From Ruminococcus sp. FC2018 (GTDB lineage: Bacteria > Bacillota > Clostridia > Oscillospirales > Ruminococcaceae): DNA of 64,000 nt. The DNA lies in assembly GCF_000621805.1 (NCBI RefSeq), contig NZ_JHXH01000004.1:1-64000 (forward strand), read 5' to 3'. The notes under the pieces were generated by a model. That model saw only the letters and a program-made list of their open reading frames with translations, ran no database searches and was not told the origin of the DNA. Within the stretch, counting starts at the first letter, position 1. Every line of letters starts with the position of its first letter. A program made the position numbers and the translations under genes. This document shows positions 5,568 through 19,832 of the stretch, piece by piece.

Positions 5568-5763
5568 GTTGATTACAACGGCAGGACAGATCTGTTCGAC
5601 ACATTTATAGAATCGCTGCTAACTGATTTTCTAAACGAAAGCGGCGCAGAGAATTACGATGCCGCAGCAGAAACAGAGCTTGCCATATCGGCATAGGCTT
5701 ATGCGTTTCTTAAAAATGAAAGAATGAAAAAACTTGAAAACATGGTTATATTACAGGCTGTCT
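5565..5763 (+). pseudogene. 3' remnant of an unidentified gene upstream of the recombinase
   Basis: The plus frame reads TDLFDTFIESLLTDFLNESG and then AAAETELAISA, meets TAG at 5694-5696, and stays open in the same frame through AYAFLKNERMKKLEN to 5763. It overlaps the recombinase start. It has no start codon of its own; its left edge collides with the minus-strand remnant at about 5567. It is probably a small gene of the integrative element cut by a deletion. Confidence 0.4.
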
Positions 5764-7308
5764 CGTGATGAGGACAGTGAAATGAACAGCCTGCAAAATC
5801 AAAGGCAGATACTTGTTGACTACGCACAGCAGAAAGGTCTGGAAATAGTGGGTGAGAGCTTTGATGACAACGTATCGGGAATGTCATTCAACCGAAAAGG
5901 TCTTGAGGAGCTTGAAGCTGCTGTTGACAAAGGGATAGTCGAGCTGGTGCTCGTCAAGGATCTGAGCAGACTTGGCAGGCACAGAACGCAGACTGCCCTG
6001 TTCATCGATCACCTGCGGCAGAACAATGTCAAGGTGTATTCCGTCACCGAGGGCATAGATACCAGCGATGAGGACGACGATCTGCTGATAGGATTCAAGC
6101 AGATATACAATGACTTCTACGCCAAGGACATCGGCAGAAAAATAAGAACGGGCATCAACCAGAAACAAAAGCAAGGGCTGATAGTCAATCTCCCGATGGG
6201 TTACTACAAGGACAAGCTCACGGGCGAGGTCAGAGTCGATGAGATCGCCGCCGACATCGTCAGAGAGATATACCACTCCTATCTCGAAGGTCGAGGACTG
6301 TCATCTATCGCAAGAGAGCTGAACAGACGGGGCGTCAAATCTCCCGAGTTCTACTCCCATAGAAAGATAGGCGCACAGCGGACACAGATGTGCAAGAAGT
6401 TCCTGTGGGCACAGACGACTATTAAAAGGCTTTTGACCAACGAGATATACACAGGCACCCTTGTCAATCACAAGACGGTCACCAGCAAGATATACAAGAC
6501 CAAGAAAGTTGTTCCCGAGGAGGAACGATTCCGCCACGAAGATTTTGTCCCTGCGATAATCGACAAGGTGACCTTCAACAAGGTGCAGGCTGTCATAGAG
6601 AGCAGAACGGCAAACACCTGCCGCACAAAGATAGGAGGTACGCTGCACCGATACTCAGGAATGATAAAGTGTGCTGACTGCGGTGCGATACTTGTTGCTA
6701 AGTGGCGGGGGAAAGGCGATGACAGGTATGTTGAGTACACCTGCAACAGCCACCACAGGTACGGCAAGCAGTACTGCACTCCCCACCGCATACACGAAAG
6801 TCAGCTGGACAAATGCGTGACTGATGAGCTGTACCGCCTGCGTGACAGGCTCAAGGAAGAAAGCAAAAAGTACGAAAAGATAGTCAGGGAGTGGCAGAAG
6901 AACAAGCCGAGGTTCGAGCAGCGGATACAGCAGTACACCCAGCGGATAAACCTGCTTCAGGAGCAGATTCAAGGAATACTTATGGAACGCATAACCGACA
7001 AGGCTCACGCTGATATGTACGATGATATGATAAAAAAGCGAGAAGCCGAGATCAAGGACCTCAAAAACAGGATAAGCGAATGTCAAAGGCTTGACGAGGT
7101 AAGTTCCCAAAAGAGCAGCCAGCTGCGCTCAACTGCCGAACTGCTTGACGAGATACTCTCCCAGCCGAAGATATCGGATTCCGATCTGCGAATGCTGGTG
7201 CAAAAGGTGCTTGTGCATCAAAACGATGACAAGAGCCTTGATGTGCAGTTTATATTCAACGGTGCATTCGAGCAGAGCGTGACAAAGTATGATGACGAAC
7301 AGGTATAA
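5734..7308 (+). CDS. Large serine recombinase
   Basis: This 524-residue site-specific recombinase belongs to the resolvase/invertase superfamily and would integrate or excise mobile DNA through a serine-DNA link. The N-terminal catalytic domain (about 1-140) has YYRLSRDEDSE with nucleophile Ser10, and LVKDLSRLGR with the active-site arginines. The recombinase domain spans about 165-280. A zinc ribbon follows at about 310-350 (CADCG, then YTCNSHHRYGKQYC), then a long coiled coil (about 365-460) and a C-terminal tail. The only in-frame start is TTG 5734, because a stop lies three codons upstream, and the length is complete for the family. Parts of near-identical copies lie at 10507-10637 and 17275-17439. 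An intrinsic terminator follows at once. Confidence 0.92.
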   Translation: MKTWLYYRLSRDEDSEMNSLQNQRQILVDYAQQKGLEIVGESFDDNVSGMSFNRKGLEELEAAVDKGIVELVLVKDLSRLGRHRTQTALFIDHLRQNNVKVYSVTEGIDTSDEDDDLLIGFKQIYNDFYAKDIGRKIRTGINQKQKQGLIVNLPMGYYKDKLTGEVRVDEIAADIVREIYHSYLEGRGLSSIARELNRRGVKSPEFYSHRKIGAQRTQMCKKFLWAQTTIKRLLTNEIYTGTLVNHKTVTSKIYKTKKVVPEEERFRHEDFVPAIIDKVTFNKVQAVIESRTANTCRTKIGGTLHRYSGMIKCADCGAILVAKWRGKGDDRYVEYTCNSHHRYGKQYCTPHRIHESQLDKCVTDELYRLRDRLKEESKKYEKIVREWQKNKPRFEQRIQQYTQRINLLQEQIQGILMERITDKAHADMYDDMIKKREAEIKDLKNRISECQRLDEVSSQKSSQLRSTAELLDEILSQPKISDSDLRMLVQKVLVHQNDDKSLDVQFIFNGAFEQSVTKYDDEQV

Positions 7309-7396
7309 AAAGAAAGGCTGGTGCAGATCAAACTGCATCAGCCTCACTTTTTTTGTGGGTGCAGCCGTTATGTGAACGCCCGTGACTTAGACCTGC
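7309..7396 (+). repeat. Dispersed repeat, copy A: recombinase terminator plus conserved tail
   Basis: This starts right after the recombinase stop. The hairpin AGGCTGGTGCAG ... CTGCATCAGCCT with a T-run (7315-7354) is followed by GTGGGTGCAGCCGTTATGTG and the rest of a block found almost unchanged after the second copy (10636-10722). Shorter hairpin-only copies are at 17440-17485 and 18882-18911. Confidence 0.85.
7315..7354 (+). terminator. Recombinase terminator
   Basis: A 12-bp stem with one mismatch, AGGCTGGTGCAG/CTGCATCAGCCT, is followed by CACTTTTTTT. Confidence 0.85.
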
Positions 7397-7721
7397 AAGC
7401 CTCCTGGGAGCAGCAGCAAATGGCAGCATAACGGCATACTGTCATTGTGCCCGGCTTCAAGGGCGGTGCGGCTATGATGCAGCAGATTCAGGATCAGTAA
7501 TATAAGAAAAGGGCAATGTCCTCCCTGCGTGGAAGAGATCGCCCTTTATCATATCCAATTACTTCAAATATCAACACTCTCCAAATAGAACCTGCTGATC
7601 TTCTCGTGAGTGATCGCAGCTCTGGACCAGGTCCGGATCCAAAGCAGTATTAAAACATAAAAGGCTATTGCACATAATGATAACTGTGCAACAGCCTTTA
7701 TTTTATATGCTTTCCAAAACA
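7397..7721. other. Scrap region with gene 3'-ends and two hairpins
   Basis: There is no intact gene. On the plus strand 7438-7500 reads as a C-terminus (TVIVPGFKGGAAMMQQIQDQ, then stop), followed by a hairpin at 7509-7547. On the minus strand, 7563 to about 7640 reads as another C-terminus (WIRTWSRAAITHEKISRFYL, then ESVDI and a stop). A good hairpin AAAGGCTATTGCACA/TGTGCAACAGCCTTT follows at 7660-7704. A 9-bp inverted repeat GCCGTTATG/CATAACGGC spans 7364-7435. None of the fragments is recognised. Confidence 0.5.
7660..7704. terminator. Hairpin, probable terminator
   Basis: A near-perfect 15-bp stem (AAAGGCTATTGCACA with TGTGCAACAGCCTTT) lies downstream of the TIGR04076-like remnant on the minus strand. 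It is flanked by A and T tracts, so it could stop transcription in either direction. Confidence 0.65.
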
Positions 7722-7884: not shown

Positions 7885-8670
7885 TTATTTCAACTCGACC
7901 GCCAGCTCTGCCACCGAAACAAGCACGGCTTCGCCGCTGATCGCTATTCTGCCGCTGCCGAGCAGCTCACATTTCAGATGACCGCCACGCTTTGAAGCCT
8001 GATAAGCATTGATGACAGACTTTCCAAGAATCTCAGACCAATAGTCTGCTATTTGGCAGTGCGCCGAGCCGCACACAGGATCTTCGGCTATTCCGAATTT
8101 TGGGCAAAAGCTGCGTGATACACAGTCTGTTTGCGTACCTCTTGCCGTTGCATTCTGGATGCGCCCCTCGACCTTTTTGAGCATTTCCTGATCAGGGTCC
8201 ATAGTGCGTACCTGTTCTTCATTTTCAAAAACACAGATCAGATCCAGTCCGAGGACAGCCTTGACAGGTCTTACACCGAAAGCCTTTTCCATATCGTCCG
8301 TGACAGGTATCTCCCGAAGCGGATATGTGGGGAAATCCATTTTGTAAAACGAACCGTCCCGTGTAACGGTAAGCATTCCACTCATTGTTTCAAACCGAAC
8401 GGAATCGGCATCAGGCTCATAGTAATTCATTATCACAAAAGCAGAAGCCAGCGTAGCATGACCGCAAAGCTCTACCTCTGTTACAGGCGTGAACCACCGC
8501 AGATGATAATATTTTCCCTCCTTGACGATAAATGCCGTTTCCGAGAGATTATTCTCCATCGCCAATTTCATCATAGCATCTTCCGATACCCATTTATCCA
8601 TAACACACACCGCCGCCGGATTGCCCGAAAAAGGCTTGTTTGTGAATGCGTCAACAATGTATTGCTTCAT
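7885..8670 (-). CDS. PhzF-family isomerase
   Basis: This 261-residue protein of the PhzF/diaminopimelate-epimerase fold was named after the phenazine-biosynthesis isomerase; most relatives have unknown substrates. The family start is clear (YIVDAFTNKPFSGNPAAVCV), with catalytic Glu44 in NNLSETAF and ELCGHATLASA further on. The C-terminal half has DPVCGSAHC, the second-lobe motif. The length is normal or slightly short. It follows the GNAT gene by 17 bp on the same strand, in an operon of small enzymes between two recombinase remnants. No phenazine genes are nearby, so the name should not be read as pathway membership. Confidence 0.9.
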   Translation of the reverse strand: MKQYIVDAFTNKPFSGNPAAVCVMDKWVSEDAMMKLAMENNLSETAFIVKEGKYYHLRWFTPVTEVELCGHATLASAFVIMNYYEPDADSVRFETMSGMLTVTRDGSFYKMDFPTYPLREIPVTDDMEKAFGVRPVKAVLGLDLICVFENEEQVRTMDPDQEMLKKVEGRIQNATARGTQTDCVSRSFCPKFGIAEDPVCGSAHCQIADYWSEILGKSVINAYQASKRGGHLKCELLGSGRIAISGEAVLVSVAELAVELK

Positions 8671-8687
8671 GTTTATACCTCATTACT

Positions 8688-9134
8688 TTAGAACTCTGCT
8701 CCCATCAGTATGACCTCGGTTTCCTTTTTGAAGCCGTATTTAGTGTAAAACTCGGGCAGGACGCCCTCTGCGGCGGTTATAAGGTGAACGCCCGCCATAC
8801 CCTGTGCCTTAATATCTGCAAGGCACTTTTCAAGCAGTTCCTTTGCGATACCTCTGCGCTGATATTCGGGATCAACCGCAAGGTCATTGATCTCAAATGT
8901 CCTGCCGTAATGGAACAGCATTGATGTTCCCAGGATAAAGCCGACGACCTTGCCGTCGAGGACATATTCAAGACCGTAGGATTGCTTTGACTCCAACAGC
9001 TCCCGAACGTGAATGACCGCATCTTCCGGTTTCCACGGATCATTCCACGGCTCACCCGAAAAGGCTCTTGCGTATATGTCACCATAGCGCTTGATATGCT
9101 CCATAGTGATAGGCTGAATGCTATCTTTAATCAT
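8688..9134 (-). CDS. GNAT-family N-acetyltransferase
   Basis: This 148-residue acetyl-CoA-dependent N-acetyltransferase has an unknown substrate. The acetyl-CoA-binding motif A is visible as INDLAVDPEYQRRGIAKELL, with the Q-R-R-G-I-A loop, followed by the typical FYTKYGFKKE near the C-terminus. The start overlaps the upstream SRAP-like stub by 8 bp, and the PhzF gene follows 17 bp downstream. Confidence 0.88.
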   Translation of the reverse strand: MIKDSIQPITMEHIKRYGDIYARAFSGEPWNDPWKPEDAVIHVRELLESKQSYGLEYVLDGKVVGFILGTSMLFHYGRTFEINDLAVDPEYQRRGIAKELLEKCLADIKAQGMAGVHLITAAEGVLPEFYTKYGFKKETEVILMGAEF

Positions 9135-9408
9135 GATCGTCCTCCGTTATTTCTATCCTGCTGATAGCCTGAATGTTTATCCTGGACTTGTCCATGAAAA
9201 CAAGCTCCTGTGAATAGCTGTCAAATATCCGCACCACACCTTGCTTATTCGGAGCGAATACCGCTGCCATATCGGTTGGACGGATATTGCCCGACATTTC
9301 CGCCGAACGTGACATAGTGTTCCTGATCGTATTCGCAAGCGGTAGCTGCTGTGCCTTTGTGATGATCGGTGACAGCGTGGATCTTTCTGCATAGAACCAA
9401 GTACACAT
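9127..9408 (-). pseudogene. N-terminal stub of an SRAP (YedK/HMCES-like) protein fused to a foreign tail
   Basis: SRAP proteins form a thiazolidine crosslink between Cys2 and abasic sites in single-stranded DNA. Here ATG 9408 follows AAAGGAG at eight bases and gives MCTWFY with Cys2 in place. Later GNIRPTDMAAVFAPNKQG matches the family's GDIxPTD-APV block. After about residue 57 the family sequence stops, and an unrelated tail (VVRIFDSYSQELVFMDKSRI and onward) closes the frame at 93 residues; SRAP proteins are usually about 200 or more. The asparagine, glutamate and histidine residues of the active site that lie further on are missing, so the crosslinking function is probably lost. Confidence 0.6.
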
Positions 9409-9465
9409 GGGGTTCACTCCTTTCTTATTTGCTATGCTAAATCAGAATTTGCCGTTATTTGTTTC

Positions 9466-10332
9466 CTATGCCCAGATTGCCATCGCCAAAGTGCCGAAAA
9501 CGATCAGAATCAACCCGGCAAGCGCCTTTCTGCTCAACTTTTCTTTGAATACGAAATAGGAAAAAGCGACGGAAACGATAATGCTGAGCTTATCGATCGG
9601 TACGACAACGCTGACGACGCCGTTCTGTATGGAGTAATAGTAACAGAGCCATGATGCGCCTGTGGCAATCCCGGACAGAGCTATGAATACAAGTTCTTTG
9701 GAATCAGTATTTTTCAGTTCAGCACCTTTGCCTTTAACGAAAACGATCAGCCAAGCCATAACAAGAACAATACCTGTACGGATCGCCGTCCCGAGATTTG
9801 ATTCTACATCCGTTATGCCGATCTTTCCCAGAATAGAGGTCAGGGCAGCAAAAACAGCGGAACCGATCGCGTAGGGCAGCCACGTGCGCTTTGTGTCCTT
9901 TGCTTCAGTTTTCTTCTTTTCGATCATCAGAAACACGCCTGCCGCAAGAAGTGCAGTACCGATCAGCTTGACCGCCAGATGTTCTGTCTCACTGAAAAGG
10001 ATGATTGCGATAAGCACTGTCAGAATCGTGCTGGATTTATCGACGGGAACGACCTTGTTCACATCGCCGACGGACAGGGCTTTAAAATAGCAGATCCACG
10101 AGACTCCTGTCGCAAGGCCGGACAGAATTAAGAAGATGATAGATTTTGCCGATATTTCCGTGATCGTTCCAGCAGAGCCAACGATAAACACCATGATCCA
10201 GGCAAAAAGGAGTACAACGACCGTCCGCAGAGCAGTCGCCACGTCTGAATCAGTCTTTTTGATCCCGCATTTCGCAAGTATCGCCGTAAGTCCGGCAAAG
10301 AGCGCGGACAAAGCCGCCATGATCAGCCACAT
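9466..10332 (-). CDS. EamA-family (DMT) transporter
   Basis: This 288-residue inner-membrane permease has ten predicted helices made of two homologous EamA halves. The two halves visibly repeat each other: TALRTVVVLLFAWIMVFIVG against TAIRTGIVLVMAWLIVFVKG, and LSGLATGVSWICYF against LSGIATGASWLCYY. Such proteins export or import amino acids, nucleobases or other metabolites; the substrate is unknown. Its own promoter lies at 10441-10469. The next gene downstream is the SRAP stub, 57 bp away. Confidence 0.92.
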   Translation of the reverse strand: MWLIMAALSALFAGLTAILAKCGIKKTDSDVATALRTVVVLLFAWIMVFIVGSAGTITEISAKSIIFLILSGLATGVSWICYFKALSVGDVNKVVPVDKSSTILTVLIAIILFSETEHLAVKLIGTALLAAGVFLMIEKKKTEAKDTKRTWLPYAIGSAVFAALTSILGKIGITDVESNLGTAIRTGIVLVMAWLIVFVKGKGAELKNTDSKELVFIALSGIATGASWLCYYYSIQNGVVSVVVPIDKLSIIVSVAFSYFVFKEKLSRKALAGLILIVFGTLAMAIWA

Positions 10333-10469: not shown

Positions 10470-10506
10470 TCCACAATACGAAAAAAACGGGAGCAACCCT
10501 GAGCGA

Positions 10507-10637
10507 GTTGTTCCCGGGGAAGAAAGATTCCGACACAAAAACTTTGTCCCTGCGATCATCGACAAGGTGACATTCAACAAGATGCAGGCTATCATAGAGC
10601 GCAAAACGTGACATAGTATGGTGACGAAAAGGTATAA
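10507..10637 (+). pseudogene. Recombinase remnant B (internal piece joined to the C-terminal end)
   Basis: The frame reads VVPGEERFRHKNFVPAIID followed by KVTFNKMQAIIERKT, nearly identical to an internal part of the recombinase at 5734-7308. A short stretch corresponding to the last eight or nine codons (VT, then a stop in place of Lys, then YGDEKV and a stop) follows directly. About 220 codons between them are deleted. The recombinase terminator and tail repeat follow. Confidence 0.85.
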
Positions 10638-10722
10638 GAAAGGCTGGTGCGTATCAGATCGCATCAGCCTCACTTTTTATGTGGGTGCAGCCGTTATGTG
10701 AACGCCCGTGACTTGGACCTGC
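10636..10722 (+). repeat. Dispersed repeat, copy B
   Basis: The terminator hairpin AGGCTGGTGCG ... CGCATCAGCCT and the following GTGGGTGCAGCCGTTATGTG block match copy A at 7309-7396. The sequences diverge after ACCTGC. Confidence 0.85.
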
Positions 10723-10750
10723 TCTCCTATCGAAAGGGGTGATTTCAGGC

Positions 10751-10855
10751 ATGAAGAGATGTAATATCGACTTCTCTTCAAGTTTGCATAAGAAAAACTT
10801 ATCTAATTTACCCGAAATCCAGATTGATTTATTTGAAAACTATGATAAACTATAA
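10751..10855 (+). CDS. Possible 34-residue small protein
   Basis: ATG 10751 is preceded by AAAGGGGTGAT at a workable distance. It opens a 34-codon frame (MKRCNIDFSSSLHKKNLSNL, then PEIQIDLFENYDKL) ending inside the -10 region of the flavodoxin promoter. The ribosome site belongs to the repeat-tail side of the junction, so this may be a chance fusion left by a deletion. It has no recognisable family. Confidence 0.25.
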   Translation: MKRCNIDFSSSLHKKNLSNLPEIQIDLFENYDKL

Positions 10856-10870
10856 TTACCAAATAAATCA
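10825..10870 (+). promoter_or_regulatory. Promoter region of the flavodoxin operon with a perfect 11-bp inverted repeat
   Basis: TGATTTATTTG (10825-10835) and CAAATAAATCA (10860-10870) are perfect inverted repeats. They flank a TATAAT at 10851-10856, whose -35 region (TTTATT) is weak and covered by the left arm. This arrangement suits control by a DNA-binding regulator. The ribosome site CGGAGG and ATG 10885 follow. Confidence 0.55.
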
Positions 10871-10884
10871 CGGAGGTAACACTT

Positions 10885-11400
10885 ATGGCTAACATTCTTA
10901 TCGTTTACTATTCACGCAAGGGCGAAAACTACTGGAACGGCGGTCTTAAAACCATCGCAAAGGGCAACACCGAGCGTGTGGCTGAGTTCATTCAGAATGC
11001 AGTGGGCGGTGATCTTTTTAAAGTAGATACCGTAAAGCCCTATTCCGAGAGCTATATGACCTGCATCGAGGAGGCAAAGCAGGAGCTTCGTGCAAAGGCT
11101 CGTCCTGAGATAAAGGCTTATCCCGACAATTTTGAAGACTACGACACTATCTTTGTGGGCTTCCCTAACTGGTGGGGAACGATGCCGATGTGTATGTTCA
11201 CACTGCTTGAAAAGTATGATCTGGCAGGCAAGACGATCATTCCTTTCTGCACCAATGAGGGCAGCGGTATGGGTTCAAGCGAGCGTGATCTTAAAAATCT
11301 CTGTAAGGGCGCAGTTGTCAAGGCCGGGCTTTCTGTTCACGGAGCAGAATCGGCAGAGAGTGAAAGCAAGGTCGCTGCGTGGGCAAAGAAATCTGTCTAA
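10885..11400 (+). CDS. Flavodoxin family protein
   Basis: This 171-residue FMN-binding protein would act as an electron carrier or an NAD(P)H-quinone reductase-type enzyme in the cytoplasm. The family start ANILIVYYSRKGENYW holds the phosphate-binding loop region in a longer variant, and GNTERVAEFI continues it. VGFPNWWGTMPMCM and PFCTNEGSGMGSS are the isoalloxazine-side loops seen in the family. The aldo-keto reductase gene starts 12 bp after its stop, so the two are cotranscribed; both are redox enzymes. Confidence 0.9.
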   Translation: MANILIVYYSRKGENYWNGGLKTIAKGNTERVAEFIQNAVGGDLFKVDTVKPYSESYMTCIEEAKQELRAKARPEIKAYPDNFEDYDTIFVGFPNWWGTMPMCMFTLLEKYDLAGKTIIPFCTNEGSGMGSSERDLKNLCKGAVVKAGLSVHGAESAESESKVAAWAKKSV

Positions 11401-11412
11401 GGAGGAACTATT

Positions 11413-12264
11413 ATGAATTACATTACTTTGAATGACGGCAACAAGATCCCAGCGGTAGGTTTCGGCGTGTTCATGATCCCTGCCGACGGCTCGACATACA
11501 AGGCAGTGCTTGAAGCGCTGAAGGTCGGCTACCGCCACATTGACACGGCTGCCGCATATTTCAACGAAGCGGAAGTCGGCAAGGCTGTCCGTGACAGCGG
11601 AATTACCCGTGAGGAGATCTTCGTCACGAGCAAGCTGTGGCTTCAGGACTACGGCTATGAAGCTGCTAAGAAAGGCATTGATGCGTCGCTTTCCAAGCTG
11701 GGTCTTGACTATATCGACCTCTATCTGCTCCACCAGCCTTATGGCGATGTGGCAGGTGCGTGGAAGGCTCTTGAAGAAGCAAAAGCACAGGGTAAGATAC
11801 GTTCTATCGGTGTCAGCAATATGACACCAAAGCTCTACACCGAACTGACTGCTGATTTTGCAACAAAGCCTGCGGTAAATCAGGTTGAATGCAATCCGCT
11901 TTTCCAGCAGAAGGCTCTGCGAGAGGTGCTTGCAAAAGACGATGTAAAGCTAGAAGCGTGGTATCCCCTCGGTCACGGTGACAAGTCACTGCTTAAAAAC
12001 CCGGCGATCACAGCACTTGCTGAAAAGTACGGTAAGAACGCAGGACAGATCATTCTGCGATTTGAGGTGCAGGAGGGCTTTATCGTTCTGCCGAAGTCCA
12101 CAAATCCCGAGCGTATCAAGGGCAACATCGACATTTTTGACTTTGAACTGACCGCTGAGGAAATGGATACTATCCGTGCGCTCGATACAGGCAAGGGTTC
12201 CCACGATCCCGAAGCTCCGGGTGTTGGCGAAATGCTGCTGAACAATTACAAAATTCATGACTGA
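11413..12264 (+). CDS. Aldo/keto reductase
   Basis: This 283-residue NADPH-dependent reductase of aldehydes and ketones has a TIM-barrel fold. The catalytic tetrad is complete: Asp44 in YRHIDTAAAY, Tyr49, Lys74 in VTSKLW and His107 in YLLHQPYG. The cofactor-binding end is seen in VLPKSTNPERI. GAGG lies before ATG 11413. It is the second gene of the flavodoxin operon, and the following NTF2-like gene overlaps or abuts it. Confidence 0.93.
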   Translation: MNYITLNDGNKIPAVGFGVFMIPADGSTYKAVLEALKVGYRHIDTAAAYFNEAEVGKAVRDSGITREEIFVTSKLWLQDYGYEAAKKGIDASLSKLGLDYIDLYLLHQPYGDVAGAWKALEEAKAQGKIRSIGVSNMTPKLYTELTADFATKPAVNQVECNPLFQQKALREVLAKDDVKLEAWYPLGHGDKSLLKNPAITALAEKYGKNAGQIILRFEVQEGFIVLPKSTNPERIKGNIDIFDFELTAEEMDTIRALDTGKGSHDPEAPGVGEMLLNNYKIHD

Positions 12265-12274
12265 TGGTGATACT

Positions 12275-12643
12275 ATGACCGACAAGGAACAGATCATACA
12301 GCTCTACAAAGAGATGTACACTGCAATGGTGAACAAGGACAGAGCAGAACTTGAACGTGTCCATGATGACAGCTTTGTGCTTGTCCACATGACAGGTATG
12401 CGCCAGCCGAAAGAGGTCTACATAAGCTCGATCATGGACGGTACGCTGAATTATTATTCTGCCGAACATGAACATATGCAGGCGGAGATCAATGGTGATA
12501 CTGCTGTGCTTATCGGAAAAAGCAAAGTCACGGCTGCGGTATTCGGAGGCGGAAAGCATACCTGGCGGTTACAGCTTAGGTTTCAGCTTGTGAAGAAAAA
12601 CAGCGAGTGGCGCTTTGCACTTGCGAGCGCCTCGACCAATTGA
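12275..12643 (+). CDS. NTF2-like (SnoaL/DUF4440) protein
   Basis: This 122-residue protein has the cone-shaped NTF2-like fold, predicted from the helix-rich start (EQIIQLYKEMYTAMVNKDRA, then ELERVHDDSFVLVHMTG) and the following strand-rich half. Such proteins are often small isomerases or hydrolases of unknown substrate. ATG 12275 is preferred because of the upstream GGTGAT. An in-frame ATG at 12257 would overlap the reductase stop and is possible. It is the third gene of the operon. Confidence 0.75.
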   Translation: MTDKEQIIQLYKEMYTAMVNKDRAELERVHDDSFVLVHMTGMRQPKEVYISSIMDGTLNYYSAEHEHMQAEINGDTAVLIGKSKVTAAVFGGGKHTWRLQLRFQLVKKNSEWRFALASASTN

Positions 12644-12649
12644 GGTGAT

Positions 12650-12856
12650 ATGATGCTAAAACAGATACGCTATTTTCAGTCGGTGGTGCAGCTTGGCAGC
12701 TTCACAGCTGCCGCAGAGGAGCATTTTATTTCGCAGTCTGCGATCTCACAGCAAATAAAGGCTCTTGAAAAGATCGCAGGTCCCAACAGCAACGCTTCGG
12801 TAATTCCGGCGGCTAAGGGTCCGAAGATCACTCCGCCTATCAAGGACGACAAATAA
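12650..12856 (+). pseudogene. LysR-type regulator reduced to its helix-turn-helix and fused to a foreign tail
   Basis: The first 41 residues are a LysR DNA-binding head (LKQIRYFQSVVQLGSFTAAA, then HFISQSAISQQIKALEK). The wing and the whole effector domain (normally about 250 more residues) are absent. Instead the frame continues with GPNSNASVIPAAKGPKITPP and stops after 68 codons, close to a terminator. This looks like a deletion that joined the 5' end of a LysR gene to the 3' end of another gene. The short head alone might still bind DNA weakly, but no regulation is expected. Confidence 0.75.
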
Positions 12857-12882
12857 GCCTTGATACATAATAACGGATACAC

Positions 12883-12918
12883 AGGCTTCTCTGTTTTCAC
12901 GGAGAAGCTTTTTATTTA
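12883..12918 (+). terminator. Intrinsic terminator
   Basis: GCTTCTCTG-TTTTCA-CGGAGAAGC is followed by TTTTTATTT, 30 bp after the LysR stub. Confidence 0.75.
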
Positions 12919-12972
12919 TATTACGATAGTTAAAACAATAGATTTATTATTTTTGTTTTTAATATTAAATAG

Positions 12973-13001
12973 TTGACTTTTAGAAACAAAAGTGTTATAA
13001 T
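12973..13001 (+). promoter_or_regulatory. Promoter of the S41 peptidase gene
   Basis: TTGACT and TATAAT have 17-bp spacing. AGGAGGAG precedes ATG 13082. Confidence 0.85.
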
Positions 13002-13081
13002 GATGTCGGGCGAATACTCTCTAAAAAATGCCGATGTTGTAAAAATATGGGCGTTAATAACAGAATCAGGAGGAGAAAAAG

Positions 13082-15004
13082 ATGACGATCAAAAAAAGGC
13101 TGGTCGCAGTGGCAGCGGCTACGATGCTTGCAGTTTCAGTCTTTCCGCTTTCCGCTTTTGCCGACAAGGAAGCGAAATACGAAAAAAGGGAAGTTACTGC
13201 TTACAAGTACAGCATGGATAAGAGCGAAAAAATGCAATGCCTGTTCTTGAATGATCTGCCGGACGTTCCGTATGTAGATGTTGAGGCTTACCTTGACAGT
13301 ATATACACAAAGGATTTTACTACCTCGGCAGACGGTGATGTTTACACCGTAAGCGGAAACGGCATGACCATTGTTGCGGATACAGCTAAGGAAACGCTCA
13401 CTATCAACGGATTTGATTCAAACTTCCAGTTGAATATACTTGAGCTTGAAAAAAAGGAAGATAATCCTGAATACGTCACTGAGCCGGAGGCATCCATAGA
13501 CGGTACAGAAAAGCCGGTTTCCATTGATTATTCAAAGTACAAGATCGACCTTATAGGTGACGACGGAAAGCTGTATTTACCATTGACATCAATTTCAAAT
13601 ATTTTTGACTGCGTATACCGTCTGGCTGAATATATAAACGGCAATCTGTACTTTACATCGGTTATGTCACGGTCAGGTACGGGAAGCGGATACTATGACC
13701 GTTCACCGATCTATTTGAAAAAAGAGCGTTCACAGGCAATGATAGATTATACCTACAATGAGCTGTGCGTGTATATGGATTATTTCTTCGGCAAACCGTC
13801 CAAGGCTATAATCTCAAAGGCTATTGCGGAAAAAGGGTTCGATAAGGCACTTGATGATGATTATCCTGAGATAAAGCAGCTGCTTTTGTCAAAGAGCCGT
13901 GCTGATTTCCATCTTGGTACGCTTTTGCTGGACGATGCAACCGATGACGGCGGACATACGGCAATGTATTATGGCATATTCGGAGATTTGCAGATATTCC
14001 CTGAAGACCAGAAGGATAATCTGATCGGGGAGTATATTGTTCGGATACAGGAATCGTTAAAGGCGCAGGAGCAGATCGCAAAAATGCAGACGCCTGACAA
14101 CACTCGGGATAGGGTCCAGGCTGCAAGAGAAGAAAAGCTGAAAAATGCCACAAAGGTAAAGGAATGGCCTGAGGACGGAGTAGCTCTTTACGTTAACGGT
14201 AAAACGGCACTGTTCCAATTTGCCGGCTTTATACATCCTGTTGTTGATGATTTCGTATGGTCGCTGGATTACGCTTCTAAAAACGGCGTAAAGAATTTTG
14301 TTATAGATGTAGCTGCTAACGGAGGCGGAGAAGAAACGATCGCACACTTTATTAATGCTATGATGGCTAACAAGCAGAAAAACAACAATGCGGTCGTTAC
14401 AAAAATGCATAGTGCGCCAACCGGCAACACCATCAACACTAAATATGTATTGGACCTTGACCACAACGGTACGATAGACGATAAGGACAAGAGCGTATAC
14501 TATGATTTCAACTATGCTATACTTACGTCTAAATCATCTTTCTCAAGCGCAAATATGCTGCCATGTCTGGCAAAGGATAATGGCATACTGATCCTGGGCG
14601 AAACATCAGGCGGAGGAACTTGTATGGGAAGTCAGCATCGTTACGCTGACAGTGTTTACTTTGCAGCTGCGGGACTTTACACTATGAATCGCAAGGATGG
14701 CACGGATCTGGACGCCGGCGCAGCGGTTGATTTTGACCTCACGGCAAAGAATGCAGACGGAACCACAAGCTACCTGGGATTTTATGATTTTGCAAAGCTG
14801 GAGGAGTGCATCGACAAGTTCTACGGCGTTACACAGGAAGCTGCTCCCGAGGAAACTCCTCAGCAGGCAAAGGTAGAGCCTGCAAAGGCAGTTGTTGACA
14901 AGGATGCTGCTCCGCCGACAGGTCATGTTGGTGACACTATAACAGCTGCGGTACTTCTGATAGCTGTTGGTTCACTGGCTGTCAAGAGAAAAGACATGGA
15001 TTAA
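13082..15004 (+). CDS. Secreted S41-family peptidase with a C-terminal surface anchor
   Basis: This 640-residue extracellular serine peptidase is of the tail-specific protease family. Residues 1-27 are a signal peptide (KKRLVAVAAATMLAVSVF, cleavage after AFA). A long N-terminal domain follows. The S41 fold is recognised from about 375 onward by FVIDVAANGGGEE, then LTSKSSFSSANMLPCLA with candidate nucleophile Ser488 or Ser489, and GETSGGGTCMG. The Lys partner is not obvious. The end has PPTGHVGDT, a hydrophobic helix (AAVLLIAVGSLAV) and KRKDMD, which resembles a sortase-type sorting signal. It has its own strong promoter. Its substrate is unknown. Confidence 0.85.
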   Translation: MTIKKRLVAVAAATMLAVSVFPLSAFADKEAKYEKREVTAYKYSMDKSEKMQCLFLNDLPDVPYVDVEAYLDSIYTKDFTTSADGDVYTVSGNGMTIVADTAKETLTINGFDSNFQLNILELEKKEDNPEYVTEPEASIDGTEKPVSIDYSKYKIDLIGDDGKLYLPLTSISNIFDCVYRLAEYINGNLYFTSVMSRSGTGSGYYDRSPIYLKKERSQAMIDYTYNELCVYMDYFFGKPSKAIISKAIAEKGFDKALDDDYPEIKQLLLSKSRADFHLGTLLLDDATDDGGHTAMYYGIFGDLQIFPEDQKDNLIGEYIVRIQESLKAQEQIAKMQTPDNTRDRVQAAREEKLKNATKVKEWPEDGVALYVNGKTALFQFAGFIHPVVDDFVWSLDYASKNGVKNFVIDVAANGGGEETIAHFINAMMANKQKNNNAVVTKMHSAPTGNTINTKYVLDLDHNGTIDDKDKSVYYDFNYAILTSKSSFSSANMLPCLAKDNGILILGETSGGGTCMGSQHRYADSVYFAAAGLYTMNRKDGTDLDAGAAVDFDLTAKNADGTTSYLGFYDFAKLEECIDKFYGVTQEAAPEETPQQAKVEPAKAVVDKDAAPPTGHVGDTITAAVLLIAVGSLAVKRKDMD

Positions 15005-15330
15005 ATCTATACCGGAAAAACTTATTGACAACGGTAACAAGCCCTGCCCGGACCTATTTTGAAATGCTCCCCTTTTGTTAGACAATGTGGTATAATAGAA
15101 ATATACCAATTATGAATCTAACGAAAGGGGGCATTTTTATGCCCTTTTCAAAATCCCCCATAACGATTTCACGATAAGAAAAGCTTTATGGCGCACTAAG
15201 GTTCATGTGCGCTGCTAATGTATTTACCCGTACTTTTAAGTGAAATATACCGAGTAAATATTAAAATTCCGTAAATACTGAATTCAATTCAGTTTTGAGA
15301 TAGACTGTTCTCAAGATAAAATATCAGGGG
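15005..15330. other. Intergenic region with an inverted repeat around an extended -10 box
   Basis: There is no gene. CCCCTTTTGTTAGA (15069-15082) and TCTAACGAAAGGGG (15117-15130) are inverted repeats with one mismatch. They surround TGTGGTATAAT (15086-15096). A hairpin GGGCAT-TTTT-ATGCCC with a T-run follows (15129-15151). This could be a relic of a mobile element's end or a regulated promoter of a deleted gene. Confidence 0.45.
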
Positions 15331-15956
15331 GTGGGAACACTGGAGAAAAAAGTTAAGATCAGGCAGGTAAGAGCAGCTGAAACTCGAAAAAAATAGTTTC
15401 GGCAGCAAAAAAACTTATCACGGAAAACGGCTTTGAGAACGTATCCATCGAGGATATTGCCAAACAAGCCGAGGTATCGACAGGCTCGTTTTATACCTAT
15501 TTCAAAAAGAAAGAGGATATTATCGAGGAGCTGAATCAGTCGAACTTCTATCGCCTTGCGGAGATAACCAATGAGATGACAGAAAAGGATCTTGATGAAC
15601 GGCTGAAATACTACTGCCGTGAATTTCTGGGGGAAATAGAGCGTGTCGGGATAGAGATCTGCAGGTAGTGGATACGCAACAATATTGCTCCCGTCAGGAT
15701 AGTTATCTCGGACAAGGAGACCACGAAGTATGACCACGATCACCTTGCGATGAGGTCACTGATAGAGGAAGGTGTGAGCAGAGGCGAGCTTACAGAGAAT
15801 GTTCCCGCTGACGAACTTGCACTTTTTATCAACACACAGCTTTACGGACTTATGGTTGCTTGGTGCATGAGCGATGCTTCGGTAGTCGGCTCTGCCAAGA
15901 CCGATGCATTTTTCGATAGTATCATCAAACCGGCACTTATGCCGTACAAATTATGA
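15331..15956 (+). pseudogene. TetR-family regulator with a frameshift and a nonsense codon
   Basis: The reading begins GTGGGAACACTGGAG (15331), but the frame stops at TAG 15394-15396 because one A is missing from an A-run. In the next frame the TetR helix-turn-helix is clear: KKLITENGFENVSIEDIAKQ and AEVSTGSFYTYFKKKEDII. A second lesion, TAG at about 15668, follows ERVGIEICR. Beyond it the same frame continues to 15956 (LFINTQLYGLMVAWCMSDAS). It lies 18 bp ahead of the alcohol dehydrogenase gene and probably once controlled it. A sequencing error could explain the first lesion but not both. Confidence 0.85.
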
Positions 15957-15974
15957 TTTAACAGGAGGTACGGT

Positions 15975-17150
15975 ATGAAAGATTTTGTATTCAGCAACAC
16001 AACAAAGGTTTATTTCGGCAAGGATCAGCTCCATCATCTGAGTGAGGAGATCGCTAAGTTCGGCAAGAAAGTCCTGCTGGTTTACGGCGGCGGCTCTATC
16101 AAAAGGATCGGCTTGTACGATAAGGTGATGGCTGAACTGAAAAAGGCTGATATGACGGTGTTTGAGCTTGGCGGCGTTGAGCCTAATCCGCACCACACCA
16201 CCGTCAACAAGGGTGCTGCGCTTTGCAAAAAGGAAGGCATTGATGTACTTCTCGCAGTCGGCGGCGGCTCGACGATCGACGCAACAAAGGCTATGGCTGC
16301 AACTGCAAAATACGAGGGTGACGATTGCTGGGACATCATCACAGGCAAGGCTTTCGTGCCCGACAATCTGCCAATCGTATCGGTGCTTACCCTTTCGGCA
16401 ACGGGTTCCGAAATGGACATCGGCGGTGTTATCAGCAATGTTGAGCTTAATGAAAAGCAGCCAATTTTCGGACCGACATTAAGACCGAACGTTTCATTCC
16501 TCGATCCTACAAATACATTCAGCGTCAACGCATACCAGACCGCAAGCGGAAGTGCGGACATTATGGCGCACGTTTTTGATGTGGCATATTTCACCGATCA
16601 GGAAGAAATGGATATGCTCACCCGTATGCAGGAGGAGGTGCTGAAAACCGTAGTCAAGTACGCACCTGTCGCTATCGAAAAGCCCGATGATTACGAAGCA
16701 CGTTCCAATCTGATGTGGGCATCGAGCTGGGCGCTCAATGGTTTCTTGTTCAGCGGCATTTCTCAGGACGCTATCGCTCACATGATCGAGCATGAGCTTT
16801 CCGCTTTCTACAACATCACCCACGGTCACGGACTTGCTATTGTTATTCCGAGATGGCTGACCTATATTCTCAGCGAAAAGACAGCACCGAAGATCAAGCG
16901 TTTCGGTGTGAATGTCCTCGGTGTAGATGCGTCACTTTCCGATATGGACGGCGCAAAGGCTGCGATCAAGGCTCTGGAGAAATTCTACTTTGAGACACTC
17001 GGACTTCAGAGCCGACTGAGCGACCTGGGCATTGACGATAAGAATTTCGCACTCATGGCAAAGAAAGCCTGCAGTGCAAAGGGCAAGCTGGTCGGATTTA
17101 CAACGCTCACCCCTGCCGATGTTGAGGAGATATTCAAGATGTGCCTGTAA
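15975..17150 (+). CDS. Iron-containing alcohol dehydrogenase (NADPH-dependent butanol dehydrogenase/YqhD-like)
   Basis: This 391-residue group III alcohol dehydrogenase interconverts aldehydes and alcohols with NAD(P)H in the cytoplasm. The nucleotide-binding GGGS motifs (VYGGGSIKR, AVGGGSTID) mark the N-terminal Rossmann part. The metal ligands are seen as GSADIMAHVFD, HMIEHELSAF and NITHGHGLA. Length and motif order are normal for BdhA/YqhD-like enzymes. The ribosome site ACAGGAGG precedes ATG 15975. The TetR pseudogene upstream suggests that expression is now unregulated. Confidence 0.93.
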   Translation: MKDFVFSNTTKVYFGKDQLHHLSEEIAKFGKKVLLVYGGGSIKRIGLYDKVMAELKKADMTVFELGGVEPNPHHTTVNKGAALCKKEGIDVLLAVGGGSTIDATKAMAATAKYEGDDCWDIITGKAFVPDNLPIVSVLTLSATGSEMDIGGVISNVELNEKQPIFGPTLRPNVSFLDPTNTFSVNAYQTASGSADIMAHVFDVAYFTDQEEMDMLTRMQEEVLKTVVKYAPVAIEKPDDYEARSNLMWASSWALNGFLFSGISQDAIAHMIEHELSAFYNITHGHGLAIVIPRWLTYILSEKTAPKIKRFGVNVLGVDASLSDMDGAKAAIKALEKFYFETLGLQSRLSDLGIDDKNFALMAKKACSAKGKLVGFTTLTPADVEEIFKMCL

Positions 17151-17178
17151 TTTCTTAAAAAAACGAGGTGAGTTTGAA

Positions 17179-17274
17179 ATGATCTGTGAAGAGGAAATGG
17201 TAGATCTGCGGATCGCTGATCCGAAAAGCATTGAAGAAGGCAAAAGACTGGCGCAGCTTGCTTTGATACAGTAG
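17179..17274 (+). pseudogene. 31-codon N-terminal fragment fused to a recombinase remnant
   Basis: ATG 17179 with GAGGTGAG upstream opens MICEEEMVDLRIADPKSIEE and ends ALIQ-TAG at 17274. The same frame stays open after the stop and runs straight into recombinase remnant C. It is probably the 5' end of a deleted gene joined to the recombinase tail; the family is not recognised. Confidence 0.4.
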
Positions 17275-17439
17275 GCGGAACGCTTGTATTTCAAGCCGAA
17301 GATATCGGATTCCGACCTGCGAATGCTGGTGCAAAAGGTGCTTGTGCATCAAAACGAGGACAAGAGCCTTGATGTACAGTTTATATTCAACGGTGCATTC
17401 GAGCAGAGCGTGACAAAGTATGATGACGAACAGGCATAA
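17275..17439 (+). pseudogene. Recombinase remnant C (C-terminal 47 codons)
   Basis: PKISDSDLRMLVQKVLVHQN and the following codons, through FEQSVTKYDDEQA, are almost identical to the end of the recombinase at 5734-7308. The recombinase terminator repeat follows. Confidence 0.88.
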
Positions 17440-17485
17440 AAAGAAAGGCTGGTGCAGATCAAACTGCATCAGCCTCACTTTTTTG
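17440..17485 (+). repeat. Dispersed repeat, copy C (terminator hairpin)
   Basis: This has the same hairpin AGGCTGGTGCAG ... CTGCATCAGCCT plus T-run as copy A. The GTGGGTGCAG block that follows in copies A and B is absent. In the other direction the hairpin forms the last codons of the antiporter gene. Confidence 0.85.
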
Positions 17486-18703
17486 TCTTCTATTGTTTTC
17501 AGTACCGATATCGGTCGATAAAAGGAAAGAATAGCTGCGGTCGATTCCTAGAGCGCCAAGCGGAGCTGTGATCAGAATCGCAAGCACCGCAACTGATAAC
17601 ACTATCTTTCCGCATGGCAGACCAAGCGACAGCGGTACCGAGCCTATAGCTGCCTGCACCGTTGCTTTCGGAAGATAGGCTATCACACAGAAGAAACGTT
17701 CTTTTGTGTTAAGCTCCGTGCCAACCAGACATAAGACTACACCCACAGACCTGAAAGCGAGAGCTATGAATATCATCAGAACCGCCATACCGCCTGCCGT
17801 AAGTGTGTAGCGAACATCAACAGCAGCACCTACAAGCACGAACAGCATTATTTCGGCGGCTATCCACAGCTTGCCGAACTTTTCAGACAGTCTTGCACAA
17901 ACGCTCTTGTTGGCTTTCAGCTTCACCACGCAAGCCATAGCTACAACAGCAAGCAATCCCGACATGGCAACATAGGGCTTCACAAGATATTCAACACTCA
18001 TCAGAAAAAAGGATGTTCCGAGCAGGATAATGACCTTTGTGCTGTTTCTGATTTTGAGCTTGTTCTGGTATGATTTTTCAAAGAGAAAATAAATCAGAAG
18101 TCCGACTGCCGCACCGAGCAGAACGCCGAGAACTATGGATATGGGGATATTCAAAAAGTCAGTGACTTTTGCCGAGCCGCCCTGCGCCATCGTCACAAAT
18201 GTGGAGAACAGCACGATAACGAAGATATCATCACAGGACGCTCCTGCAAGAATCATCTGCGGAATGCTTTTCTGTGTTCCACATTTTTCTTCTATCAGTT
18301 TCACCATTCTCGGCACGACGACTGCAGGAGAGACAGCACTCAGTACCGCACCCATGACAGCTGATTCAATACGGTTCACACCGAGCAGAAGCGGAGCGAA
18401 CAGAATATATCCGACTATCTCACAGCATGCAGGAACAAATGACATCATCACAGCAGATCTGCCAACCTTCTTCAAGTCTGAAAGGTTAAGCGACAATCCA
18501 GCTTTTATCAGTATAATGATAAGTGCTATCTGCCGAAGCTCTGAGGATATGCCGAGTATTTTCGAGTCGAGCAGGTCAAGAACATATGGACTTACCACGA
18601 TTCCTACGCCAAGCATACCAATTATACGAGGCAATCCTATTTTCTCAAATATTGCAGCGGCAGACAAACCGACAAGAAAAATGACCGCAAGTGATAAAAT
18701 CAT
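17459..18703 (-). CDS. CPA2-type cation:proton antiporter under a fluoride riboswitch
   Basis: This is a polytopic membrane antiporter of about 414 residues and the Kef/NhaS type, with about 12 helices (for example LSLAVIFLVGLSAAAIF at the start and GASCDDIFVIVLFSTF with the paired Asp-Asp). ATG 18703 is the start because GGAGG lies just upstream, and the DNA before it is an RNA leader with its own promoter. Antiporters of this kind are known partners of fluoride riboswitches, so a role in fluoride or linked cation stress is inferred. The last dozen codons (NRRQKSEADAV) are read from repeat copy C, so the natural C-terminus has been replaced; the membrane core seems complete. Confidence 0.85.
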   Translation of the reverse strand: MILSLAVIFLVGLSAAAIFEKIGLPRIIGMLGVGIVVSPYVLDLLDSKILGISSELRQIALIIILIKAGLSLNLSDLKKVGRSAVMMSFVPACCEIVGYILFAPLLLGVNRIESAVMGAVLSAVSPAVVVPRMVKLIEEKCGTQKSIPQMILAGASCDDIFVIVLFSTFVTMAQGGSAKVTDFLNIPISIVLGVLLGAAVGLLIYFLFEKSYQNKLKIRNSTKVIILLGTSFFLMSVEYLVKPYVAMSGLLAVVAMACVVKLKANKSVCARLSEKFGKLWIAAEIMLFVLVGAAVDVRYTLTAGGMAVLMIFIALAFRSVGVVLCLVGTELNTKERFFCVIAYLPKATVQAAIGSVPLSLGLPCGKIVLSVAVLAILITAPLGALGIDRSYSFLLSTDIGTENNRRQKSEADAV

Positions 18704-18724
18704 AATAATACCTCCAAACAGAAT

Positions 18725-18770
18725 AAAAAAGAGCCGATAACTATTGCGTAAAACGCAGAAGTCATCAGCT
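18725..18770 (-). terminator. Riboswitch expression-platform terminator
   Basis: On the minus strand GCTGATGACT pairs with AGTTATCGGC (two G-U pairs) around an inner TGCG/CGCA stem, followed by six T. It overlaps the 3' part of the riboswitch aptamer, so ligand binding and terminator formation would compete. Confidence 0.75.
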
Positions 18771-18826
18771 TGAATAAGCGGTTTAGGTTTCCCAGGGGAG
18801 AACATCATTCCCATATCAAATTGTCT
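18740..18826 (-). promoter_or_regulatory. Fluoride riboswitch (crcB motif)
   Basis: The leader RNA contains GGGAATGATGTTCTCCC, then AAACCGCTT and AAGCTGATGACTTCT. These are the conserved elements of the crcB motif in the right order and spacing. A terminator overlaps its 3' end. In known cases fluoride binding prevents termination and switches on fluoride-protection genes. The match was judged by eye, without a covariance model. Confidence 0.8.
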
Positions 18827-18832
18827 GCATTC

Positions 18833-18861
18833 ATTATATCACGGCAGAACAAACAAGTCAA
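18833..18861 (-). promoter_or_regulatory. Promoter of the fluoride-riboswitch antiporter
   Basis: On the minus strand TTGACT (18856-18861) and TATAAT (18833-18838) are spaced by 17 bp. Transcription would begin near 18826, at the 5' edge of the riboswitch. Confidence 0.85.
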
Positions 18862-18881: not shown

Positions 18882-18911
18882 AGGCTGGTGCGTATCAGAT
18901 CACATCAGCCT
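18882..18911. repeat. Dispersed repeat, copy D (hairpin only)
   Basis: AGGCTGGTGCGTATCAGATC and the closing ACATCAGCCT match the loop variant of copy B. Neither recombinase codons nor the GTGGGTGCAG block is present. It lies just past the 3' end of the GNAT gene and may serve as its terminator. Confidence 0.7.
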
Positions 18912-18945
18912 TAATTGTTCTTCAATAATTGGCATCGCCCCGTCA

Positions 18946-19482
18946 TCATAAGACATATTCCATTTGTACATCAAACGGCTCGTTTTCAGCAATTTCACGG
19001 TTTATCTCTTCTGCGTCAACACAACCCAGTTTGCGGTATGCCGCCTGACTTTCCTTCGACGAATGTGCTGAAATATACAGTTTCTCAGCTCCTAAAAGTC
19101 TTGCTTCACGACAGATCACTCTGAAAAGACCGGTGCCTATGCCCATTCTGCGAAACGGCTGTGAAACATGAAAAAGCACAAGCTCCAGGTACTGAGCATT
19201 GCTTCCAAACAGCTTATTTGAGATCACTATGTATCCTACAATTTTTTCGCCCAGAAATGCACCGTATGCCGTCCATTCCAAACCAAGTAGTTTGCAGATG
19301 GAAGCGGCGATCTCTCTGCGTTTTTTCAGATCCCAGTCCTCAATATACTCATTGGTGACTAATTTCCATTCCTCACCTACAAACCGCCAGCATTCTTTTA
19401 CTTTCTGATATCTTATAAAGTTATCAAGAGAATATTCGTTGAAGTTCTTATCTGTTAGCTTTTCAATGACAATATTGTTCAT
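18946..19482 (-). CDS. GNAT-family N-acetyltransferase
   Basis: This 178-residue acetyltransferase starts at ATG 19482, because AGAAGG is correctly placed there and the longer in-frame extension has no ribosome site. Motif A is ELVLFHVSQPFRRMGIGTGL, with the R-R-M-G-I-G acetyl-CoA loop, followed by AEKLYISAHSSKESQAAYRK and LG. The N-terminal 60 residues are less typical. It is a single gene downstream of the tRNA-Leu unit; the substrate is unknown. Confidence 0.85.
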   Translation of the reverse strand: MNNIVIEKLTDKNFNEYSLDNFIRYQKVKECWRFVGEEWKLVTNEYIEDWDLKKRREIAASICKLLGLEWTAYGAFLGEKIVGYIVISNKLFGSNAQYLELVLFHVSQPFRRMGIGTGLFRVICREARLLGAEKLYISAHSSKESQAAYRKLGCVDAEEINREIAENEPFDVQMEYVL

Positions 19483-19507
19483 AAATACCTTCTTTCGTGT
19501 ACAAAAA

Positions 19508-19535
19508 AAGTGTTCCCGAAAAATCGAAAACACTT
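19508..19535. terminator. Hairpin between the tRNA and the GNAT gene
   Basis: AAGTGTTCCCGA-AAAA-TCGAAAACACTT has A and T tracts on both sides, so it could act in either direction. Confidence 0.45.
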
Positions 19536-19573
19536 GGATTTCTTATTCACAAAAGGATGTTAAACAAGCAAAT

Positions 19574-19625
19574 GTGAATGATAGAAGTTTCCGATTTTTC
19601 TGTTACGAATATTCATATCATTCAC
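19574..19625. repeat. Perfect 10-bp inverted repeat
   Basis: GTGAATGATA (19574-19583) and TATCATTCAC (19616-19625) are exact inverted repeats with a 32-bp spacer, 17 bp after the 3' end of the tRNA. Confidence 0.6.
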
Positions 19626-19641
19626 CTGCCTTTCTGAAATT

Positions 19642-19726
19642 TGGTGCGGGTGACAGGACTTGAACCTGCACTCCTCTCGGAAGCAGCACCTAAAACTGCC
19701 GTGTATGCCAATTTCACCACACCCGC
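19642..19726 (-). tRNA. tRNA-Leu (anticodon UAG)
   Basis: The minus strand gives an 85-nt tRNA with encoded CCA: acceptor GCGGGTG/CACCCGC, D-arm GGTGAAATTGGCA, anticodon stem GCAGT/GCTGC around TTTAGGT (anticodon TAG), a leucine-type variable arm TCCGAGAGGA and T-arm GCAGGTTCAAGTCCTGT. It reads CUA-family leucine codons. It is the last and only complete member of a small transcription unit started at 19977. Confidence 0.95.
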
Positions 19727-19793: not shown

Positions 19794-19832
19794 ACCTAAA
19801 ACTGCCGTGTATGCCAATTTCACCACACCCGC
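19794..19832 (-). repeat. 5' half copy of tRNA-Leu (39 nt)
   Basis: It is identical to the first 39 nt of the complete tRNA-Leu: acceptor 5' strand, D-arm, anticodon stem 5' strand and the loop including TAG. It then diverges completely. It lies about 68 bp upstream of the intact gene on the same strand. Confidence 0.85.

Follow-up and report, generated by a model that had tools for sequence, protein, structure and literature searches.

Fluoride tolerance is usually explained by the Fluc and CLC-F exporters, with antiporters being regarded as helpers. In one review, Na+/H+ antiporters appear as the next-most common riboswitch-associated class after the fluoride exporters (PMC11139923). Riboswitch-controlled fluoride genes are also carried on mobile DNA, namely on GI3, an island in the genome of Enterobacter cloacae FRM (PMC5533749), and on the Listeria plasmid pLM7802 (PMC9484302); both elements carry crcB, whereas the module described below carries an antiporter only. 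In architecture, the nearest parallel to the surrounding DNA is offered by the ssrA islands of Dehalococcoides, which are built by the serine recombinase DsiB, lie in tandem at an RNA gene among displaced repeats of its 3' end, and place the 3' end of the recombinase gene at the att edge, with some of the islands having no recombinase at all (PMC3146451). The target of those islands is given there as the T loop of the tmRNA, whereas at the present locus it is apparently the anticodon loop of a tRNA-Leu, and here a hairpin terminator is repeated as well.

The locus lies in the window, by which we mean the whole 64-kb stretch of DNA that was analysed, which opens a contig of 190 kb in a 2.40-Mb genome (G000); the relatives that carry the same module (G009, G010, G012, and G016) belong to the same genus. 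The riboswitch–antiporter pairing is not new, since the review cited above already lists Na+/H+ antiporters as a class (PMC11139923), and the first-pass annotation was right to call the antiporter a known partner of the switch. The aptamer, the terminator, and the antiporter partner are all shared with the known RF01734 systems; the differences from these lie in an NHA2-like gene, the lack of any detected CrcB or CLC, and a module that is nearly unchanged between species. Overall, judged from its sequence, this looks like a unit of a known type, which would be distinguished by the apparent stack of mobile islands at tRNA-Leu and by a genome in which neither known fluoride exporter was detected. 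We consider it likely that the unit is a module for fluoride response, self-contained in its transcription, and that it forms part of the cargo of a stack of tandem mobile islands at tRNA-Leu(UAG). No publication on this module was found among the titles and abstract openings of the openly accessible literature. The coordinates of the features are collected in Table 1.

Table 1. Features of the module and its surroundings in the window
Feature	Position	Strand	Basis
Promoter-like TTGACT-17-TATAAT with TG (extended -10)	18833..18861	-	Promoter scan; similar pair in 17/20 homologous leaders
Fluoride riboswitch aptamer, RF01734	18749..18821	-	50.1 bits, E 6.6e-11
Overlapping intrinsic terminator (expression platform), stem 18770-18732 plus U run	18722..18770	-	Folding; 20/20 antiporter leaders
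Ribosome-binding site GGAGG, 7 nt upstream of the ATG at 18703	18711..18715	-	Read from the sequence
Na+/H+ exchanger family protein, 414 aa, ASCDDIF motif	17459..18703	-	PF00999; nearest solved relative NHA2
Codons past the 1-nt indel relative to the G010 copy	17459..17495	-	Last four sense codons and stop in hairpin
Hairpin repeat, 3' boundary of module; U-rich tail in antiporter direction on folding	17447..17474		Repeat search and folding
Hairpin repeat, promoter-side boundary of module	18883..18910		Repeat search and folding
Serine recombinase 3'-end remnant, residues 437-523, 62%, near hairpin	17188..17433	+	Sequence match
Module M: flavodoxin, aldo/keto reductase, S41 peptidase, and Fe-ADH genes	10670..17446		97-98% identical in G012, G006
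Intact large serine recombinase, 524 aa, stops 7 bp short of a hairpin copy	5734..7308	+	Domain scan
Hairpin repeat behind the intact recombinase	7316..7343		Repeat search
Degenerate tRNA-Leu 3' half (antisense), att-like core at its end	7344..7432	+	Pattern match
Hairpin repeat; internal recombinase piece 10501-10629 (residues 257-299) before it	10642..10669		Repeat search
Segment D3, GNAT acetyltransferase gene 18946-19533, between tRNA-Leu and module	18911..19641	-	Sequence comparison
Intact tRNA-Leu, anticodon TAG, presumed integration hot spot	19642..19726	-	tRNA match

The riboswitch leader and its antiporter gene

The leader had been read at first as a crcB-motif fluoride riboswitch with an overlapping terminator, set behind a strong promoter, and all three parts of this reading are supported. 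The Rfam covariance model matches the leader well above its gathering score (50.1 bits against 34), and no second fluoride riboswitch was found in the 2.40-Mb genome. On folding, the terminator stem is followed by CUUUUUUAUU, and its 5' arm, which starts at 18770, coincides with the conserved 3' portion of the aptamer; the leader as a whole has a folding z-score of -3.66, and one of 200 shuffles was as stable. The promoter, with its extended -10, agrees with the consensus at 11 of 12 positions and lies 11 nt from the aptamer; because the scan returned 6 promoter-like sites where 3.7 were expected, the evidence for it consists of its position and of the similar pair upstream of 17 of the 20 antiporter leaders. 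These leaders come from a survey of 61 genomes with 27 riboswitch matches, whose partners, named by eye from translations with tblastn backing in the genus only, are an antiporter of the NHA2-like type in 20 cases, CLC in 2, crcB in 1, and no recognized partner for 4 weak matches. The antiporter-linked riboswitches comprise 19 of the 20 matches above the gathering score and one just under it. An equivalent overlapping stem is present in all 20 of their leaders, with the U run being shortened in one (L011), and across the 13 distinct terminator sequences two of the 13 predicted pairs show changes on both sides, while two pairs are disrupted, one in 2 of the sequences and one in 3. Given the aptamer match, the overlapping terminator, and the conservation of the leaders, as well as the behavior expected of the family, the leader is most likely a fluoride-on transcription switch. 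A separate observation concerns the leader L010 (G024:C203), which shows an apparent partial tandem duplication of the 3' part of the riboswitch between terminator and gene that could be an assembly error.

The gene itself runs from the ATG at 18703 to the stop at 17459; a longer reading frame from 18814 was rejected as the gene, its start falling within the riboswitch. It belongs, as had been claimed, to a cation:proton antiporter family and not to CrcB/Fluc or CLC-F, with PF00999 matching residues 8-383 at 138.9 bits (profile positions 4-365 of 375). The more specific label of "Kef/NhaS-type" did not stand: the CPA2 subfamily model TIGR00932, which we take to include Kef, reaches 39.5 bits against a cut-off of 238.3, and with two models of potassium/proton antiporters, too, the 414-aa protein stays far under the cut-offs. 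The nearest solved relatives are structures of NHA2/SLC9B2 (7b4l and 7p1i; E 6.2e-38 over residues 23-387, with the DD pair aligned), whereas NapA (4czb) matches weakly (E 3.9e-4). We have provisionally assigned the protein as NHA2/SLC9B-like on the strength of this nearest solved relative, from which it differs in being bacterial and in having a shorter N-terminus. Within the genus, all close homologues (67-100% identity) whose sequence takes in the N-terminus have a riboswitch 41-110 nt upstream (14/14, two more close homologues, in G020 and G024, having been left out of the count as they lack the N-terminal part), while none of 18 distant paralogues (22-29%) has one.

Hairpins, recombinase remnants, and tRNA-Leu halves

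A hairpin repeat occurs four times in the genome, with all copies lying in the window (7316, 10642, 17447, and 18883), a number that none of 100 shuffles of the window reached; the copy at 17447-17474 was given on the + strand only in the promoter-scan listing. Since the copy at 18883-18910, which the first-pass annotation overlooked, lies upstream of the promoter, the riboswitch–antiporter unit is bracketed, and it is bracketed likewise in G009, G010, G012, and G016. Across the genus, the hairpin is present in 8 of 29 genomes with 34 exact pattern copies, or 35 as analysed, the exact pattern missing the copy at 18883. Elsewhere, the pattern matched 8 times in 7 of 297 genomes outside the genus, in at least 120 stretches of wider genome contigs (among the matches listed mostly single, in unrelated genomes, and chance-like), and as 30 single matches in viral contigs.

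The neighbors of the module change at these hairpins. To its left lie M in G000 and G012 and, in G016 and G009, modules that encode a recombinase of full length, whereas to its right lies D3 in G000, segment D2 in G012, G016, and G009, and the 3' end of tRNA-Leu in G010. Junctions that have no module also exist, as in G006, where M, a hairpin, and D2 follow one another (204 bp of D2, up to the contig end), and in G012:C24 and G020:C130, where the hairpin adjoins D3, as it also does in G004:C40, where the contig extends just 6 bp past the hairpin. The riboswitch and the antiporter together, rather than the tail alone, thus appear to be the mobile unit in these comparisons. Another stretch between hairpins (those at 7316 and 10642) holds PhzF-like, GNAT, and EamA transporter genes together at 7885-10332 of the window.

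The end of the antiporter gene had also been linked to recombinase-associated repeats, and this link is borne out by recombinase sequence directly ahead of 14 of the 35 hairpins, of which ten adjoin its 3' end and four an internal piece (about residues 243-301), the remainder having seemingly been lost by deletion. The intact recombinase has Resolvase, Recombinase, and zinc-ribbon domains. The other 21 hairpins have no adjoining recombinase match, which counts against an account by islands. Halves of tRNA genes form the second trace: tRNA-Leu 3' halves, broken in the anticodon loop and in several cases lying on the far side of a hairpin, are joined to ATGGCAGCATAAC or near variants at ten junctions, which were found by loose patterns with no chance control, and which are not ten independent events because some are near-identical copies in two genomes. 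At the anticodon loop, each of these ten halves meets a core of the ATGGCAGC type. Six of the junctions have a hairpin 57-82 nt away, one has D3 in between, and three have no hairpin within 1 kb on the DNA examined. At the module itself a tRNA half stands beside the hairpin in G010 only, which is a further point against islands. Two other tRNA remnants lie in the window, one being a second, exact 5' half of tRNA-Leu just past the intact gene (19795-19832), perhaps a relic of integration or loss, and the other a 3'-half remnant with an att-like core at about 1030-1090, with no hairpin within 1 kb upstream.

Transfer RNA genes are unusual targets for serine recombinases. In four of six loci encoding related recombinases (57-65%), an intact tRNA-Leu nevertheless lies on the 3' side (L263, L266, and L267 from other genera and L276 from G016, but not L264 or L265, where the DNA examined holds no tRNA), and relatives at 50-60% are found downstream of tRNA-Leu(UAG) in G011, G013, and G025. 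The recombinase family of the four tRNA-flanked loci seems to be tRNA-Leu-adjacent, with both TAG and CAG anticodons. Further relatives, at 46-72% in partial protein matches, are encoded in G000 at C4 187651-190285 and C22 1-579 (L280, L277, and L282). The locus thus shows what marks tandem islands targeted to an RNA gene, that is, an intact RNA gene at one edge with displaced 3' fragments and a recombinase gene beside the att edge. Repeated integration at the anticodon loop of tRNA-Leu, with each island adding a tRNA 3' half and a terminator, would be the simplest account. The large serine recombinase would have inserted the islands with its crossover in the anticodon loop, and every island would have supplied a tRNA 3' half in place of the one that it displaced, closely followed by a hairpin terminator that faces the recombinase gene; repeated insertion would have left multiple hairpins, recombinase remnants, and tRNA halves, and recombination between the repeats, probably homologous, may then swap the modules in between. 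This account leaves the presence of hairpins on both sides of the module unexplained.

Another reading, which we regard as unlikely, is that the hairpin itself is the recombination site and that the modules are cassettes cut and joined by the serine recombinase, somewhat as in integrons. Recombinase sites are often near-palindromic, and so is the hairpin; the points of change between neighbors, as judged by eye, lie no more than about 10 bp from the hairpin, the recombinase gene ends 7 bp from one, the module is present or absent as a unit although it has no recombinase of its own, and in a few hairpins, among them the one next to the module in G010, the two inner arms do not match. Against this reading, most hairpin alleles, again by eye, have matched inner arms, whereas crossovers at the center should often mix the halves. 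Moreover, the hairpins that follow the stop codons of the related recombinases are unrelated in sequence, and different hairpins and contents follow tRNA-Leu(UAG) in other species of the genus, and a crossover in the anticodon loop already explains integration. Integron gene cassettes are small modules with imperfect hairpins between them, and the modules here resemble them in being small and set apart by hairpins; unlike cassettes, the module has its own promoter, there is no sign of recombination at the hairpin, and no tyrosine integrase or recombinase was found among the 23 window proteins scanned.

The module in other species and the end of the antiporter

One alternative to mobile islands would be an old chromosomal gene, inherited vertically beside tRNA-Leu and flanked by ordinary terminators. 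The five modules, of 1408 or 1409 bp, are 98.86-99.93% identical, while the rpoB region is 93.0% identical between G000 and G012, 87.0% between G000 and G016, and 86.1% between G012 and G016, with the comparison covering these three genomes and not G009 or G010 because rpoB was found in only 5 of 8 genomes, several relatives being incomplete drafts. Vertical inheritance would fit with the riboswitch-bearing orthologues that are common in the genus and with the intact tRNA-Leu that 4 of 5 species have either close to the module or elsewhere on its contig stretch (its 3' end in G010). We nevertheless hold it to be quite improbable, given a module identity of 99.5-99.9% against 86-93% for rpoB in the three comparable pairs, the junctions at which the hairpin has no module, and the differing neighbors. 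Near-identity of 98.9-99.9% in genomes whose rpoB differs by 7-14% suggests recent transfer between species, perhaps under selection. As for possible carriers, PLSDB plasmids gave no near match to the module, and 21 phage records gave only recombinases less than 60% identical.

The 3' end of the gene calls for separate treatment. Its final codons had been described as being read from the recombinase-associated terminator repeat, and this is confirmed: the 28-bp repeat at 17447-17474, of which an identical copy stands behind the intact recombinase gene at 7316-7343, takes in the stop (17459-17461) as well as the four sense codons before it (17462-17473). From this overlap, the first-pass annotation had concluded that the antiporter gene lost its natural 3' end to an element that took its place, which a comparison of protein ends goes against. 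Nine more distant full-length orthologues, drawn from eight genomes, have stop codons of their own at 399-408 aa, with alignments extending to residues 395-403, and the module copy of G010 has a TAG stop at 404 aa, ahead of the hairpin, while the other four copies have one base missing relative to G010 and read 10 codons further, into the hairpin. Because of these two facts about the copies, we read the odd C-terminus as a 1-nt frame shift into the hairpin terminator, with the 404-aa form being probably the older one, because in the outgroups, too, the protein stops close to residue 400. Replacement of the 3' end is thereby largely refuted, unless the additional base in G010 is a sequencing error, and we give it very little credence. 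Equally little is given to an assembly or binning artefact, which could draw on the fragmented drafts of several relatives and on hairpins near contig ends, as the same bracketed module recurs in five assemblies with sequence differences among the copies and the contig of the window is itself 190 kb long.

Fluoride exporters and the role of the antiporter

If the module is cargo of this kind, it matters what other fluoride defense its hosts possess. CrcB (PF02537) had no match in G000 and is present in 1 of 29 genomes of the genus, the control for this search giving a signal in 10 of 14; Voltage_CLC (PF00654, which includes CLC-F) likewise had none in G000 and is present in 4 of 29, with the control giving a signal in 12 of 14. 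Among the 13 genomes of the genus with the riboswitch and antiporter, one (G015) has a CLC, while in the other 12, of which three (G010, G012, and G017) are only 70-86% complete, neither exporter family was detected, so that the switch there controls one NHA-like antiporter. It is possible that such a genome encodes some other, unrecognized exporter. A bolder proposal, which we advance tentatively and regard as doubtful, is that the NHA2-like antiporter is a stand-alone fluoride-resistance transporter that has replaced Fluc and CLC-F in this lineage, where it would be the only riboswitch-controlled fluoride defense (possibly moving fluoride itself) and would spread between species as a 1.4-kb module bounded by hairpins.

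In the mechanism that we propose, fluoride, together with Mg2+, would stabilize the aptamer and so keep its 3' side from the overlapping terminator, allowing RNA polymerase to read on and the NHA2-like cation/proton antiporter to be made, which in turn may counter the proton load and the drop in membrane potential that result when HF enters. The 12 of 13 genomes in which the exporters were not detected allow a clear test of whether such an antiporter is sufficient alone. More generally, the island illustrates how terminators next to a duplicated end of a tRNA gene can come to mark the limits between exchangeable pieces of cargo, and how a C-terminus can look fused, misleadingly, when a frame shift carries translation into such a terminator.
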